Source: Acidimicrobiales bacterium (GTDB lineage: Bacteria > Actinomycetota > Acidimicrobiia > Acidimicrobiales > Poriferisodaliceae). Taken from it: a stretch of DNA of 5,443 bases. Below are positions 39-4,584 of this stretch, piece by piece; position 1 is the stretch's first letter, and the number at the start of each line of letters is the position of its first letter. The stretch is from positions 1 to 5,443 of the forward strand of contig JAHDHM010000261.1 of NCBI GenBank assembly GCA_020631315.1, given 5' to 3'. The notes under the pieces were generated by a model. The model saw only the letters and a program-made list of their open reading frames with translations. It was not told the origin of the DNA and searched no databases. Made by a program: the position numbers and the translations under genes.

Positions 39-653
39 TCAGACCGGGTAGGGCACGTCCTCGTAGGGCGGCTGCGGCTCGTACTGGATGAAGCGCTGCA
101 CCTGGCGGGCATGCTCGGGTGACTCGATCTGGCCGACGAGCCACAGCGCCATGTCGATGCCGGCGGACACGCCCTGACTCGACACCACGTTGCCGTCGGC
201 GACGAACCGCTCGTCACGAACGACGGTGCAGTCGCCGCGGGCTTCCATCGCGTCCTCGAAACCCCAGTGAGTGCAGAGCCGTCGGCCCTTGGCCAGCCCG
301 GACTCGTGCAACAGCAGCGAGCCGGTGCAGACACTGGTGACCCACTCGCAGTCGGGTCCGACCCGCCGGAGCCACTCCATCAGCACGTCGTTGTCGACCT
401 CGGTCCGGGTTCCGGATCCGCCCGGAACGAGCACCACGTCGAGGTCGGGGTGATCAGCGAACGAGTGGTCGGCGACGACGCGCATGCCCTTGTTCGCTCG
501 GACGGTGCCACCGTTCTGGGCGATGGTCACGACCGAGTCGATCGGACCGTCCGGGCCGGATCGGATCATGGCCGACGCCGTCAGCACCTCCCATGGCCCG
601 GCGAAGTCGAGCTCCTCGGCGCCGTCGAAGATCAACACTCCGTAGGTGGTCAT
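39..653 (-). CDS. DJ-1/PfpI family protein, isonitrile hydratase-like
   Basis: A complete protein of 204 residues with the DJ-1/PfpI (class I glutamine amidotransferase-like) fold. It most resembles isonitrile (cyclohexyl isocyanide) hydratases, cytoplasmic enzymes that add water to isonitriles to give N-substituted formamides. Asp16 (in LDFAGP) matches the catalytic acid of that family. Cys109-Thr110 in SVCTGS form the nucleophile elbow, His129-Trp130 follow in CTHW, and VSSQGVSAGIDMAL (157-170) and FIQYEPQPPY (188-197) are typical of the C-terminal half. The start is the ATG at 653, because AGGAG lies seven bases before it and the protein begins directly with the first beta strand (YGVLIFDG). 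Its ATG overlaps the TGA of the upstream regulator gene as ATGA, so translation is probably coupled. The frame stays open further upstream, but that extension lies inside the regulator gene and is not family-like. The true substrate is unknown, and other DJ-1 activities (deglycase- or ThiJ-like) cannot be excluded. Confidence 0.88.
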   Translation of the reverse strand: MTTYGVLIFDGAEELDFAGPWEVLTASAMIRSGPDGPIDSVVTIAQNGGTVRANKGMRVVADHSFADHPDLDVVLVPGGSGTRTEVDNDVLMEWLRRVGPDCEWVTSVCTGSLLLHESGLAKGRRLCTHWGFEDAMEARGDCTVVRDERFVADGNVVSSQGVSAGIDMALWLVGQIESPEHARQVQRFIQYEPQPPYEDVPYPV

Positions 654-1723
654 GATGCTGCTCCTGTCTCGAGTCCGCGGTCGACGCTGACGAGGTCGTG
701 CACTGAAGCTTCGCCGAAGCGAGCGCGGTAGGCACTCGGCGGTACGCCGAGGTTGCGGAGGAACGCACGGCGCATCGTCTCGGCCGTACCGAAGCCACAG
801 TCCTTCGCGATCGCGGCAACCCCTGACGACCGGTGCTCCAGCGCTCGGCGTGCCTCGTCGACGCGCACTCGCTCCACGTAGCGGCCGGGGCTCTCCCCGA
901 TCTCCTTGCTGAAGACACGGGTGAAGTTCCGTTCGCTCATCCCCGCGTGTTCGGCGAGCCGACCGACCGACAGGTCGGCGTGCGGTTCTGCATGGATGAG
1001 TGCCCGCACACGCTGGATCGGTTCGACCTCGACCGGAGGCGCCCACACCGGCGCACAGAACTGGCTCTGCCCACCGGGGCGACGCAGGAACATCACCAGG
1101 TGCCGGGCGATCGCCTGGGCCACCTGGGTGCCGAGATCGTCCTCGACCAGCTTGAGGACGAGGTCGATACCAGCCGTCACCCCGGCCGACGTGGCGATGC
1201 GGCCGTCGTTCACGTACAGGGCGTCGACGTCGAGTGCGACTCGCGGGTAGCGCCGCTCGAACTCCTCGAACCGCGACCAGTGCGTCGTCGCCGACCGACC
1301 GTCGAGCACTCCGGCTTCGGCCAGGAGGAAGGCGCCGGTGCAGACCGAGACGACTCGCCGGCAGGCCGAGTGTGCTCGACGGATGACCTCCATCAGGCCC
1401 GCATCGGCGTAGGTGCGGTGCACACCGTTGCCTCCGGCGACGACGAACGTGTCGACCGTCGACACGTCGAGGTCGTCCCAGGCTCGATCGGCGTGGAGCG
1501 TGATCGGTCCGTCGCTACGTACCGGCCCCGCGTGCGGACCGACGAGTTCGACCTCGTACTCGGGCTCTCGCAGCCTGGCCGTGCGGATCGCGACATTGGC
1601 TCCATCGAACACCTCGACCGGCCCGGTCACGTCGAGCGACTGGAAGCCCTCGACGAACAGCACTGCGACGCGGCGCGTCAGACGCGCGGAGGAAGCTGCG
1701 GGCGAGGAACTGACCGGCGACAT
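650..1723 (-). CDS. GlxA-family transcriptional regulator (DJ-1/PfpI sensor plus AraC HTH)
   Basis: A protein of 357 residues from the ATG at 1723, the usual size for GlxA/FtrA-type AraC-family regulators. Residues about 17-210 form a DJ-1/PfpI domain: RRVAVLFVEGFQSLDVTGP at the start with Asp31, SVCTGAF with Cys128-Thr129, TTHW with His148-Trp149, and TSAGVTAGIDLVL. Residues about 235-335 form the AraC DNA-binding domain with two helix-turn-helix units, LSVGRLAEHAGMSERNFTRV (251-270) and GVAAIAKDCGFGTAETMRRA (301-320), followed by the typical LGVPPSAYR. In this family the sensor domain is thought to bind a small metabolite, but the ligand here is unknown. The nucleophile-elbow cysteine is kept, which is common in these regulators and does not prove catalysis. 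The gene is divergent from the heliorhodopsin and overlaps the next enzyme gene by four bases. The start is uncertain: the GTG at 1774 would add 17 residues, and neither start has a clear Shine-Dalgarno sequence. Confidence 0.92.
   Translation of the reverse strand: MSPVSSSPAASSARLTRRVAVLFVEGFQSLDVTGPVEVFDGANVAIRTARLREPEYEVELVGPHAGPVRSDGPITLHADRAWDDLDVSTVDTFVVAGGNGVHRTYADAGLMEVIRRAHSACRRVVSVCTGAFLLAEAGVLDGRSATTHWSRFEEFERRYPRVALDVDALYVNDGRIATSAGVTAGIDLVLKLVEDDLGTQVAQAIARHLVMFLRRPGGQSQFCAPVWAPPVEVEPIQRVRALIHAEPHADLSVGRLAEHAGMSERNFTRVFSKEIGESPGRYVERVRVDEARRALEHRSSGVAAIAKDCGFGTAETMRRAFLRNLGVPPSAYRARFGEASVHDLVSVDRGLETGAAS
661..665 (-). promoter_or_regulatory. Ribosome binding site of the isonitrile hydratase-like gene
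   Basis: AGGAG on the minus strand lies seven bases before the ATG at 653, inside the last codons of the regulator gene. It decides the start of the downstream enzyme and supports translation of both proteins from one mRNA. Confidence 0.75.
1447..1467. repeat. 21-bp perfect palindrome inside the regulator gene
   Basis: Two 10-base arms (ACGTGTCGAC and GTCGACACGT) flank a single central C at 1457. The palindrome lies in the DJ-1 domain region of the regulator gene. Ten bases of it, GTGTCGACCG (1449-1458), recur exactly at 1731-1740 beside the start of the same gene. It could be an internal operator, or a by-product of GC-rich codon use, since GTCGAC is frequent here. Confidence 0.4.
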
Positions 1724-1825: not shown

Positions 1826-2629
1826 ATGCTCGATCTCGACCGCCCGATCCTGACGCTCGCCCCCGACGTCACCGCCAAGCTCCGCCGCTGGAACCTGCTG
1901 GCGGCAGGACTCCACTTCGTCACCGGCTTGGTCATCGTGTTGATCGGCGACCGTGACTTCGGGCTGCCCGTCACGTCGTTCAACATCAATGGCCCGCCCG
2001 GGAACGACATCGACAACGGCGTGTTCAACGAGGTGTTCTCGTTCCCACTGGCGCTCGGCGTGGCGGCGTTCTCGTTCCTGTCCGCGCTGTTCCACGTGAT
2101 CGTGGTGATCGCCGACGATCGCTACCACCACGAGCTCGAGCGCGGCCGGAACCGCTTCCGATGGGTCGAGTACTCGCTGTCGTCGACGCTGATGATCGTC
2201 CTGATCGCCATGGTCACCGGCATCACGGACATCGCCGCGCTGATCGCCATCGCCTTCGTCAACGCCGCCATGATCCTGTTCGGCTGGATCATGGAGATGG
2301 TCAGCCGACCGGGCCCCGACGCCTGGTGGACGCCATTCTGGTTCGGGTGCGTCGCCGGGATCGGCCCGTGGACGGCGATCGTCGTGTCGATCATCGCCAA
2401 CGTGAGCGCCGACGGCGGCGAGGGCCCACCCGCGTTCGTCTACGGCATCATCGTGTCGATCTTCGTGTTCTTCAACTGCTTCGCCGTCACCCAGTGGCTG
2501 CAGTACCGCCAGACCGGCAAGTGGGCCGACTACGTGCACGGCGAGAAGACCTACATCGTCCTCAGCTTCGTCGCGAAGTCCGCACTGGCCTGGCAGATCT
2601 TCGGCAACACCCTCATCCCCGACGCCTGA
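1826..2629 (+). CDS. Heliorhodopsin (HeR)
   Basis: A complete 267-residue, seven-helix membrane protein of the heliorhodopsin family, retinal-binding photoreceptors of inverted topology distinct from type 1 and type 2 rhodopsins. Helices lie at about 21-41, 72-97, 111-131, 134-155, 169-191, 202-226 and 241-263. Compared from memory with the reference protein 48C12, Lys251 in SFVAKSALAWQIF is the retinal Schiff-base lysine (Lys241 there), Glu115 in FRWVEYSLSS the counterion (Glu107), and His30 and His90 match His23 and His80; Ser247 matches Ser237. Further family stretches are NGPPG, NAAMILFGW, PFWFGCVAGI, FVYGIIVSIF and the NTLIP end. The ATG at 1826 leaves about 20 residues before helix 1, as expected; its only upstream SD-like match is weak (GGACAGG, ending two bases before the ATG). 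The open frame reaches much further upstream, but only antisense to the regulator. Heliorhodopsins are generally not ion pumps and are thought to be sensory or to modulate partner proteins; the partner here is unknown. Confidence 0.97.
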   Translation: MLDLDRPILTLAPDVTAKLRRWNLLAAGLHFVTGLVIVLIGDRDFGLPVTSFNINGPPGNDIDNGVFNEVFSFPLALGVAAFSFLSALFHVIVVIADDRYHHELERGRNRFRWVEYSLSSTLMIVLIAMVTGITDIAALIAIAFVNAAMILFGWIMEMVSRPGPDAWWTPFWFGCVAGIGPWTAIVVSIIANVSADGGEGPPAFVYGIIVSIFVFFNCFAVTQWLQYRQTGKWADYVHGEKTYIVLSFVAKSALAWQIFGNTLIPDA

Positions 2630-2709: not shown

Positions 2710-3552
2710 CTACAGGGGCCAGAGGTGGATCTCCGGGTTCCGTTGATCGATCACGTCTTGGGCGCGACCGACGGCCGACGGGAACCAGTCGTCGTGGGTG
2801 ATGATCCAGAAGCGACGCTCCTGGATGGCGTCGTAGACCATCTGTGCGATCTCCGACGGGTCCTTCCCGGCGTGGAACGCGGCGAGGATCTGATCACGGA
2901 ACGCCGCCTGCTCGGGCGACACGTTCGGGTCGGACTCCCGAGGGCCGCCCGGCCGGTTGCGATCGCTCTCCATCAGGTTGGTCGCCACCCAGCCCGGGCA
3001 GAGCACCGACACGCCGACACCCGTGTGACCACGCAGCGCCAGTTCGTGGTGCAGCAGCTCGGACATGGCGACCACGGCGTGCTTCGAGGCGGTGTAGGCA
3101 CCGGTCGAGGGCATGGCGGTGATGCCGGCCATCGATGACGTGTTCACCACGTGGCCCTCACCCTGCTCGATCATGATCGGCACGGCGTGACGGATGCCGC
3201 GGGCCACGCCGTGCAGGTTGACGTCGACCGTCCAGAGCCAGTCCTCCTCCGTCGACTCCCACATGCCGCCGCCACCGGACACGCCGGCGTTGTTGCACAT
3301 GACGTGGAGCCCACCGAGCGACGACGCCTCCTTCACCGAGCGAGCGACGTCGTCGTCGGACCGCACGTCACACACGACGGTGCGCACGTCGGTGCCGTGA
3401 GCCGAGACCGCCTCCCCAGCCGGTTCGAGCGCGCCGACCTCGACGTCGGCCATCACGACCTTCATGCCGGCTTCGGCGAACCGGTGCGCCATCGCCAGAC
3501 CGATACCGCTGGCAGCGCCCGTGACGAGCGCGACCTTCCCCTCGAGTTCCAT
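2710..3552 (-). CDS. Short-chain dehydrogenase/reductase (SDR), classical type
   Basis: A 280-residue cytoplasmic NAD(P)-dependent oxidoreductase with a Rossmann fold. Visible motifs: TGAASGIG (11-18) for the cofactor; Asp36 at the end of the second strand (VVMAD), which favours NAD(H) over NADP(H); Asp62 in CDV; NNAG (87-90); catalytic Asn112, Ser140, Tyr153 and Lys157 (YTASK); and CPGWVAT (185-191). It is about 30 residues longer than a classical 250-residue SDR, through a segment after the PG motif and a C-terminal tail (RRFWIITHDDWFPSAVGRA) seen in many actinobacterial SDRs. The substrate cannot be told from sequence. The start is the ATG at 3552: AAGGGGG ends six bases before it, whereas the in-frame TTG two codons earlier directly abuts that site. 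It follows the epimerase gene by 39 bases on the same strand, so co-transcription is likely, but a shared pathway is not evident. Confidence 0.93.
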   Translation of the reverse strand: MELEGKVALVTGAASGIGLAMAHRFAEAGMKVVMADVEVGALEPAGEAVSAHGTDVRTVVCDVRSDDDVARSVKEASSLGGLHVMCNNAGVSGGGGMWESTEEDWLWTVDVNLHGVARGIRHAVPIMIEQGEGHVVNTSSMAGITAMPSTGAYTASKHAVVAMSELLHHELALRGHTGVGVSVLCPGWVATNLMESDRNRPGGPRESDPNVSPEQAAFRDQILAAFHAGKDPSEIAQMVYDAIQERRFWIITHDDWFPSAVGRAQDVIDQRNPEIHLWPL

Positions 3553-3558
3553 CGTCAA

Positions 3559-3591: not shown

Positions 3592-4584
3592 TCAGTCGAC
3601 TCCGAAGTCGTGGCGGGTGACCTGGGTGTAGGTCTCCCGCGGTCGCAGGACCGCCGAACCGAAGTCGGGTCGGTTCGGCGTGTCGGGCAGCAGCTGGGCT
3701 TCGAGGCACACCGCGGAGTACGACGGGTCGGCGAAGTTGGATGTGTACACCTGCAGACCCGGCTGGTCGGTCGTGACCGTCATCCGCCGACGAGAGGACG
3801 GATCGCGCAGCACTCCCGAGAGTTCTTCACCGACGAAGCAGTGGTCGAACCCGGCGGGACGGTCAGCCAACAACACCGGTGAGCTCAGGTCGAAGTAGCC
3901 CTCGGCGTCGACGATCTCGGTCGGGATCGACGCGTCGTCGACCATCACGACCCGATCCGAACGGACCATCAGCTCGTGCCCACGGGCGTCGTCGGAACCG
4001 GCGAGGTTCCAGTAGGCGTGGTTCGTCAGGTTCACGACCGTCGGCGCGTCGGTCGTGGCGCGGTACCGCAACGTGAAGGCGTCCGGTTCGACATCGATGT
4101 CCAGCCACACCTCCAGCCGACCCGGATGACCTTGGTCGCCGTCGGGCGACACGAGGTGAGCGCGCACACCGGTCTCGGTCTCCGACAGCTCCCAGTTCCT
4201 GAACCCGAAGTGATCGGGACCGCCGTGCAGCTGGTTCGGGCCCTCGTTGGCCACGACCTCGTGGCGGACACCGTCGATCTCGTAGGACGCGCCGGCGATC
4301 CGGTTGGCGTAGCGGCCGATCGTCGAGCCGAAGCCCTTGTTGACGTCAGGGTCGACGTAGTCGTCGATCGACGGCAGCGTCTTCGTCAGATTCACCGACC
4401 GGTCACCGTCCCGGTCCGGGTAGCGAACGTCCGACAGCGTCGCCCCGATCGACATCACCGTGAGCGACAGACGGCCGGTGTCGATCTCGACCCAGTGCCA
4501 CTCGTCAGGCAATGGCGACTCGGGTCCGCTGGTCTCGGTGTGCCACGTGATCTCCACGCCGTGAGTCTGGCAGGCGTCGCGCAC
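3592..4584 (-). CDS. Aldose 1-epimerase (galactose mutarotase family)
   Basis: A 330-residue protein of the GalM family, which interconverts the alpha and beta anomers of galactose, glucose and related sugars in the cytoplasm. Family signatures in order: IGATLSDVRYPDRDG (46-60), GSTIGRYANRI (86-96) with Asn94-Arg95, NEGPNQLHGG (113-122) with His120, VNLTNHAYWNLAG (184-196) with His189 as the catalytic acid, GFDHCF with Asp247, GLQVYTSNF with Gln278, and CLEAQLLPDTPN with Glu295 as the catalytic base. All residues known to bind or act on the sugar are present, so it is probably active; the preferred sugar is unknown. The GTG at 4584 is the longest start. It lacks a clear Shine-Dalgarno sequence, and the conserved domain begins only near residue 29, so a later start such as the GTG at 4557 is possible. 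No other sugar gene is next to it; ahcY lies upstream and the SDR downstream. Confidence 0.93.
   Translation of the reverse strand: MRDACQTHGVEITWHTETSGPESPLPDEWHWVEIDTGRLSLTVMSIGATLSDVRYPDRDGDRSVNLTKTLPSIDDYVDPDVNKGFGSTIGRYANRIAGASYEIDGVRHEVVANEGPNQLHGGPDHFGFRNWELSETETGVRAHLVSPDGDQGHPGRLEVWLDIDVEPDAFTLRYRATTDAPTVVNLTNHAYWNLAGSDDARGHELMVRSDRVVMVDDASIPTEIVDAEGYFDLSSPVLLADRPAGFDHCFVGEELSGVLRDPSSRRRMTVTTDQPGLQVYTSNFADPSYSAVCLEAQLLPDTPNRPDFGSAVLRPRETYTQVTRHDFGVD

Follow-up and report, generated by a model that had tools for sequence, protein, structure and literature searches.

The window, by which we mean the whole 5,443-nucleotide stretch of DNA analysed here, carries a complete heliorhodopsin (HeR). 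As a gene it is unremarkable, one more member of a known family; of interest is a natural change, recurrent among its relatives, at a residue proposed to act as a switch. According to that proposal, HeR light signalling involves a Gln26-Trp246 switch (numbering of the HeR 48C12), which two pairs of crystal structures showed. Since Trp246 is present and Gln26 missing in a large natural group of HeRs, one-residue swaps in either direction would test the proposal directly, and this Ser/Thr group also raises the question of the retinal source in such bacteria. The genes of the window are as follows.

39-653, minus strand: DJ-1/PfpI gene, from its translation
650..1723, minus strand: GlxA/FtrA-like regulator (DJ-1/PfpI plus AraC helix-turn-helix), divergent, from translation and Pfam; read from the ATG at 1723, with a GTG at 1774 as another possible start
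1826..2629, plus strand: heliorhodopsin gene, 267 aa, ATG to TGA, with PF18761, NF038020 and PDB 6su3/6is6 matches
2710..3558, minus strand: short-chain dehydrogenase (SDR), convergent, from Pfam
3592-4584, minus strand: aldose epimerase, from a profile match
4675 to the window end, minus strand: partial adenosylhomocysteinase (ahcY), from a profile match

Profile, tree and the match to solved structures all identify the open reading frame at 1826-2629 as a complete heliorhodopsin, which bears out what the earlier note had claimed. All 242 positions of PF18761 are covered with an E value of 1.8e-91 and 306 bits, far over the cut-off of 26.7, and the NCBIfam HeR equivalog NF038020 scores 290 bits, where the cut-off is 100. 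The match is far beyond chance, since 48C12 (PDB 6su3) is found at E 3.4e-72 (phmmer, 246 bits) and the Thermoplasmatales HeR 6is6 at E 2e-53; a PDB search up to E 1 returned heliorhodopsins only, in six distinct sequences. We also looked for a better match to another membrane family: no other family in Pfam or NCBIfam matches at E 1e-3, and the identity stands. Residues 18-265 align to the solved HeRs. PF18761 is the only domain, preceded by 18 residues, and the extra N-terminal domain of the MORN- or zinc-ribbon-fused type is absent. Hydropathy alone gives seven segments, some of them merged or overlapping, and with loop limits set by hand the N-terminus and intracellular loops hold 11 Lys/Arg residues versus one outside, a positive-inside count that would suit an N-terminus on the inner side. 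The family is common, as at least 5670 of 8000 candidates scored pass at E 1e-3; among the relatives, a 270-residue HeR (P0078) matches the acyltransferase domain PF01757 besides PF18761, probably by a chance overlap. The description of the family as functionally unresolved, on the other hand, is now only partly true, since published work assigns roles to a few HeRs, involving glutamine synthetase (PMC9529153), an ABC transporter (PMC11109279) and photolyase (PMC9769723).

Judged by its HeR relatives, the host is an Acidimicrobiia-type actinobacterium. The closest 35 of 59 HeR loci are labelled Acidimicrobiales, Acidimicrobiia, Acidimicrobiaceae, Ilumatobacteraceae or Ilumatobacter, the exceptions being L014 and L020, which have other actinobacterial labels. 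Identity reaches 67% at the nearest locus and 68%, over the compared stretch, for the second HeR copy of genome G353; among proteins, one on a 1665-base contig is 95% identical (P0001) and another 70% (P0004). All taxon-named relatives of the ahcY fragment among the 120 matches listed are actinobacterial, including Acidimicrobiales and Microthrixaceae. Plasmid origin was considered and rejected: matches were obtained to 56 plasmid records, all with identities of 60-80% and none over 80% of the query, and the five listed correspond to ahcY. HeRs in Acidimicrobiia were already known (PMC12008989, PMC10205998). Those in our set (Ilumatobacter nonamiensis, L010; uncultured, L001-L030, L033 and L035) fall in the same Ser/Thr clade as the window HeR and are 55-67% identical, whereas the neighbours at their loci differ from those of the window.

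Retinal-site and network residues were placed by alignment to 48C12, with the following codons.

1913..1915, plus strand: His30 (48C12 His23)
1922..1924, plus strand: Thr33 (48C12 Gln26), the altered relay residue, Ser/Thr in the clade
2093..2095, plus strand: His90 (48C12 His80)
2168..2170, plus strand: Glu115 (48C12 Glu107), Schiff-base counterion
2564..2566, plus strand: Ser247 (48C12 Ser237)
2576..2578, plus strand: Lys251 (48C12 Lys241), retinal lysine
2591..2593, plus strand: Trp256 (48C12 Trp246), where the extracellular relay ends

The earlier note had described all key photochemical residues as present. The five that it named (His30, His90, Glu115, Ser247 and Lys251) do lie at the numbers it gave and align to their 48C12 counterparts, and Lys251 falls on the retinal lysine in the alignment with 48C12 and the Thermoplasmatales structure; the change from Gln26 to Thr33 had been overlooked. 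Further residues of 48C12 that are kept are Asn16, Ser76, Tyr92, Arg104, Ser111, Glu149, Glu230, Trp246 and Ser242. The SxxxK motif of helix 7 is present, with Ser247-Lys251 on Ser237-Lys241, and so is the ESL motif of helix 3, with Glu115 and Ser119 on Glu107 and Ser111 and a Leu on Leu118, a position that we take, from bacteriorhodopsin numbering, to be the third place of the motif. The five residues of the cytoplasmic arm do not vary in any row that has a letter there, across 86 loci and 120 proteins; 86 of 90 loci entered this alignment, L034, L055, L058 and L059 being dropped as shorter than 200 residues or containing stops. What a protonated retinal Schiff base requires (the lysine, the counterion, the serines and the histidines) is thus retained, and the protein would be expected to bind retinal. 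The ESL motif is used here as defined for HeRs in PMC9601134.

With respect to colour, Gln213 and Ala240 of 48C12 are kept as Gln223 and Ala250, and Gln148 corresponds to Met156. In a HeR absorbing at 556 nm, exchanges equivalent to Gln213 to Met and Ala240 to Ser (48C12 numbers) are each reported to cause a 5 nm blue shift, and a third exchange, at the position of Met156, to have little effect (PMC7807009). One HeR in the set (L161, genome G573) has a natural Phe at the place of 48C12 His23; the laboratory H23F mutant of 48C12 is described as having a slowed photocycle (PMC9726877).

Compared with the solved structures, the window HeR resembles that of 48C12, from an uncultured freshwater actinobacterium, in its near full-length alignment, lysine, counterion, both histidines, three Schiff-base serines, cytoplasmic network, Trp246 and the GPPG bend of the A-B loop, but differs at Gln26 (Thr33), at Gln148 (Met156) and in the A-B loop residues around the bend. 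The Thermoplasmatales HeR (6is6, 7u55) has the tested retinal-site residues in common with it; unlike the window HeR, it retains Gln26, has a polar YDEI bend in place of GPPG and has Met at the place of 48C12 Gln213. A low-pH switch of His23, Gln26 and Trp243 is reported for the Thermoplasmatales protein (PMC9385722).

The significance of Thr33 lies in what has been proposed for its counterpart. Crystal structures and simulations of 48C12 describe a relay running His80-His23-water-Gln26-Trp246, by which the extracellular-face tryptophan is flipped (PMC9726877); an archaeal HeR shows a similar change, and the relay was proposed as possibly conserved (PMC9385722). In the window HeR, His30, His90 and Trp256 are in place and the Gln is replaced by Thr33, with no alignment gap between the histidine and Thr33. 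This state is shared by relatives: among the 48 loci with 52% identity or more to the window HeR, position 26 is Ser in 29, Thr in 14 and Gln in 5, and of the 38 remaining loci 37 have Gln and one a gap. The best 120 proteins, a set biased towards the clade of the window, have Ser in 82 cases, Thr in 37 and Gly in one, and the two viral-contig HeRs found both have Gln. We also built a careful tree from 86 loci, 15 of the 120 proteins, the window and two references (104 rows), whose bootstrap had not settled. In it, Ser/Thr rows form one clade of 58 (100/98), within which a Thr subclade of 21 (99/94) includes the window; a single Ser row, L097, lies outside the 58-row clade. A literature search that had subscription journals mostly outside its reach met no report of variation at Gln26. 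We conclude that a natural change at the proposed switch residue is present and recurrent among relatives.

Whether this change matters for signalling is where readings diverge. Thr33 could be neutral, with Ser or Thr plus a water replacing Gln and the extracellular relay working as in 48C12. Both Ser and Thr can donate and accept hydrogen bonds, and His23 is kept. All 209 aligned rows have Trp at position 246, and at position 242 they have Ser in 195 cases and Thr in the other 14. Against this, Thr has a considerably shorter side chain than Gln, one that, as far as geometry can be judged from the alignment, would reach less well towards Trp256; the residue splits almost completely by clade; and in the A-B loop the position-26 groups also differ on the side of the extracellular face (48C12 Thr44, Tyr45 and Pro57). 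We regard neutrality as possible, if doubtful. As the rows of the A-B loop comparison had been sorted by residue 26, its perfect split at position 26 itself is circular, and the clade claim is accordingly taken from the trees only.

The reading that we prefer, and consider probable, is that the window HeR is a functional slow light sensor, absorbing at about 550 nm, with a rewired extracellular arm and a cytoplasmic output to a partner encoded elsewhere. It builds on the family, the residues, the single-gene layout and the recurrent Ser/Thr, all observed here directly; we infer retinal binding, sensing, colour, proton route and the effect of Thr33, and the following steps would be expected from 48C12 work and the conserved residues. 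The protein would be an inverted seven-helix membrane protein with retinal on Lys251 and Glu115 as counterion. On absorption of green-yellow light near 550 nm the retinal on Lys251 would isomerise, and the Schiff-base proton would go by Glu115 into the inner cavity of His90 and His30, instead of being pumped. In the clade of the window, Thr33 in place of Gln26 would rewire the extracellular arm, the flip of Trp256 being either carried by the Thr hydroxyl and a water or uncoupled. Output would then run mainly via the conserved cytoplasmic arm (Asn23, Tyr100, Glu240, Arg112 and Glu157), which would open, and the partner encoded elsewhere would be modulated. No partner gene is linked to the window HeR, and the sensor role is thus drawn from the family. 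A rival reading is a light-gated proton transporter. The viral V2HeR3 is reported to show that the HeR scaffold is capable of this (PMC9448325); however, the close kin of the window HeR are cellular, and PMC8612252 states that, as of 2021, ion pumping had not been demonstrated for HeRs, and we consider such transport very improbable here.

The HeR gene is the only recognised plus-strand gene in the window and, since its neighbours lie on the opposite strand, it is outside any operon with them. Upstream, two DJ-1/PfpI genes stand in tandem at 39-1723 on the minus strand; the stop of the first gene shares four bases (650-653) with the start of the second, which suggests a two-gene operon divergent from the HeR gene. 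Searching the 59 HeR loci, many of which end at contig ends, found no relatives of DJ-1, AraC, GalM (the epimerase) or ahcY (0/59) and an SDR in three, at a weak 28-33% identity. Each neighbour cluster is confined to three or fewer of the 35 relatives' loci, as seen with a simple gene caller and with many loci ending at contig ends. An operon partner was thus rejected on opposite-strand neighbours and the lack of recurring company in relatives; the HeR in this group is a single gene without fixed company, and the published operon partners surveyed in PMC8612252 and PMC11109279 are for that reason no guide to it. In the studies on glutamine synthetase and the ABC transporter the partner is reported to be a flanking gene, whereas no same-strand gene flanks the HeR here. 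AbHeR, the glutamine synthetase regulator of Actinobacteria bacterium IMCC26103, is an actinobacterial HeR like that of the window but is described as standing in an operon with glutamine synthetase (PMC9529153), a gene that is not found in the window. No tRNA or Rfam match was found in the window, and no promoter or terminator signal, the promoter scan covering sigma-70 types at 1600-2800.

It could nevertheless be argued that the HeR directly regulates a neighbouring product, as with glutamine synthetase or the ABC transporter, or is itself controlled by the divergent AraC-type regulator, whose start lies some 50-100 bases off on the opposite strand. SDR genes are reported among the ten frequent HeR operon neighbours (PMC11109279). 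Every window neighbour, however, is on the opposite strand, and the near absence of these families from the 59 loci, many of which end at contig ends, speaks against it too; we consider this explanation distinctly improbable.

The retinal supply was examined in relatives. The dioxygenase Blh was found in none of the genomes of the 35 closest carriers, nor in 14 control genomes, by a search that works (17 of 296 Actinomycetota positive). Phytoene synthase is present in 2 of the 35, and these same two (G009 and G010) are the only ones with a full-length CrtY by PF05834, an unspecific model that matches in 35/35; the CrtYc/d lycopene cyclase (TIGR03462) was found in 0/35. An RPE65-type oxygenase, on the other hand, occurs in 29/35. 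Five of the 35 have a type-1 rhodopsin over the cut-off. In genome G020 the only sub-threshold PF01036 match is the heliorhodopsin itself (L075), a case of weak cross-matching between families.

A wider sample comprised 298 genomes evenly drawn from the order of G010 (Ilumatobacter nonamiensis, locus L010, a carrier of the Ser type), of which 83 have a HeR. Blh, phytoene synthase and RPE65 were found in 3, 24 and 55 of these 83, compared with 1, 94 and 84 of the 215 without HeR; the association of HeR with any RPE65 gene at E 1e-3 (55/83 versus 84/215) ignores kinship and genome completeness. Blh as the retinal source was rejected on its rarity in both the close carriers and the order. Some of the RPE65-type oxygenases form one orthologous family, 49-97% identical (L124, L125, L127-L133, L135-L140, L143 and L068), which is a candidate for retinal formation. 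It occurs in 48/298 order genomes at E 1e-100 and, at 66% identity or more, in 12/83 with HeR versus 11/215 without. Because it is equally near to lignostilbene/9,10-cleaving enzymes and to the retinal-forming apocarotenoid-15,15'-oxygenase, and is present without HeR, it is a candidate source and not the answer. Judging from the relatives, the retinal of the host probably comes from import or from a non-Blh route.

Since a known retinal pathway is missing from the majority of relatives, the window HeR might be unloaded in its host, an opsin with another or a decayed role in a cell that makes no retinal. The counts for Blh and phytoene synthase in close carriers agree with this, as do the 22 of 83 order-wide carriers that have none of phytoene synthase, Blh and an RPE65-type oxygenase. 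The tested retinal-site residues are conserved in the clade, however, which would require selection; RPE65-type oxygenases are frequent in close carriers, whose genomes are mostly metagenome drafts; and a rhodopsin-bearing bacterium without known retinal genes is reported to make retinal and to have a working rhodopsin (PMC7734400). Actinomarinales, too, are described as carrying HeR and lacking retinal-synthesis genes (PMC7771536). Judged by these reported cases, missing genes do not equal a dead opsin, and an unloaded protein seems improbable to us.

Finally, the order-wide sample also gives the distribution of position 26. Typing succeeded for 80 of the 83 HeR genomes, 39 of which are Ser/Thr (counting here the mixed-copy genomes G353, Ser and Thr, and G569, Ser and Gln), 39 Gln and two neither (G169, a broken fragment; G552, a gap); the three untyped genomes (G488, G501 and G540) have only fragments lacking helix 1. 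Of 84 typed copies, 81 show the relay tryptophan, and the other three are fragments without that region. In a FastTree of 137 rows, five changes are needed among the three states, Thr is a single clade, and the starred branches alone force three changes for Gln and four for Ser; the position-26 state has thus been gained or lost more than once. A restriction of Ser/Thr to one clade was rejected, the wider typing having found other Ser lineages. Phytoene synthase is present in 2/39 genomes of the Ser/Thr type versus 20/39 of the Gln type (Fisher 7.6e-6), a contrast that we treat as a lead only because the test ignores kinship, genome size and completeness. From this we draw a speculation that we think has a small chance of being correct: the relay of Acidimicrobiia would have been rewired repeatedly, with at least three Gln/Ser changes on the FastTree (gains or losses; at the simplest, three or four Ser gains) and Thr arising once in the subclade of the window, Trp246 being kept throughout. 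The Ser/Thr state would track hosts that do not make carotenoids, and may therefore mark HeRs tuned to scavenged or scarce retinal or to signalling from the cytoplasmic face only.

Some individual copies in this sample deserve mention. The HeR gene of G169 (L198) is split between two frames, through either decay or assembly error. Two HeR copies are found in G025 (L108 and L184), G353 (L097 and L185) and G569 (L186 and L195), and in G569 one copy is of the Ser type and the other of a very divergent Gln type.
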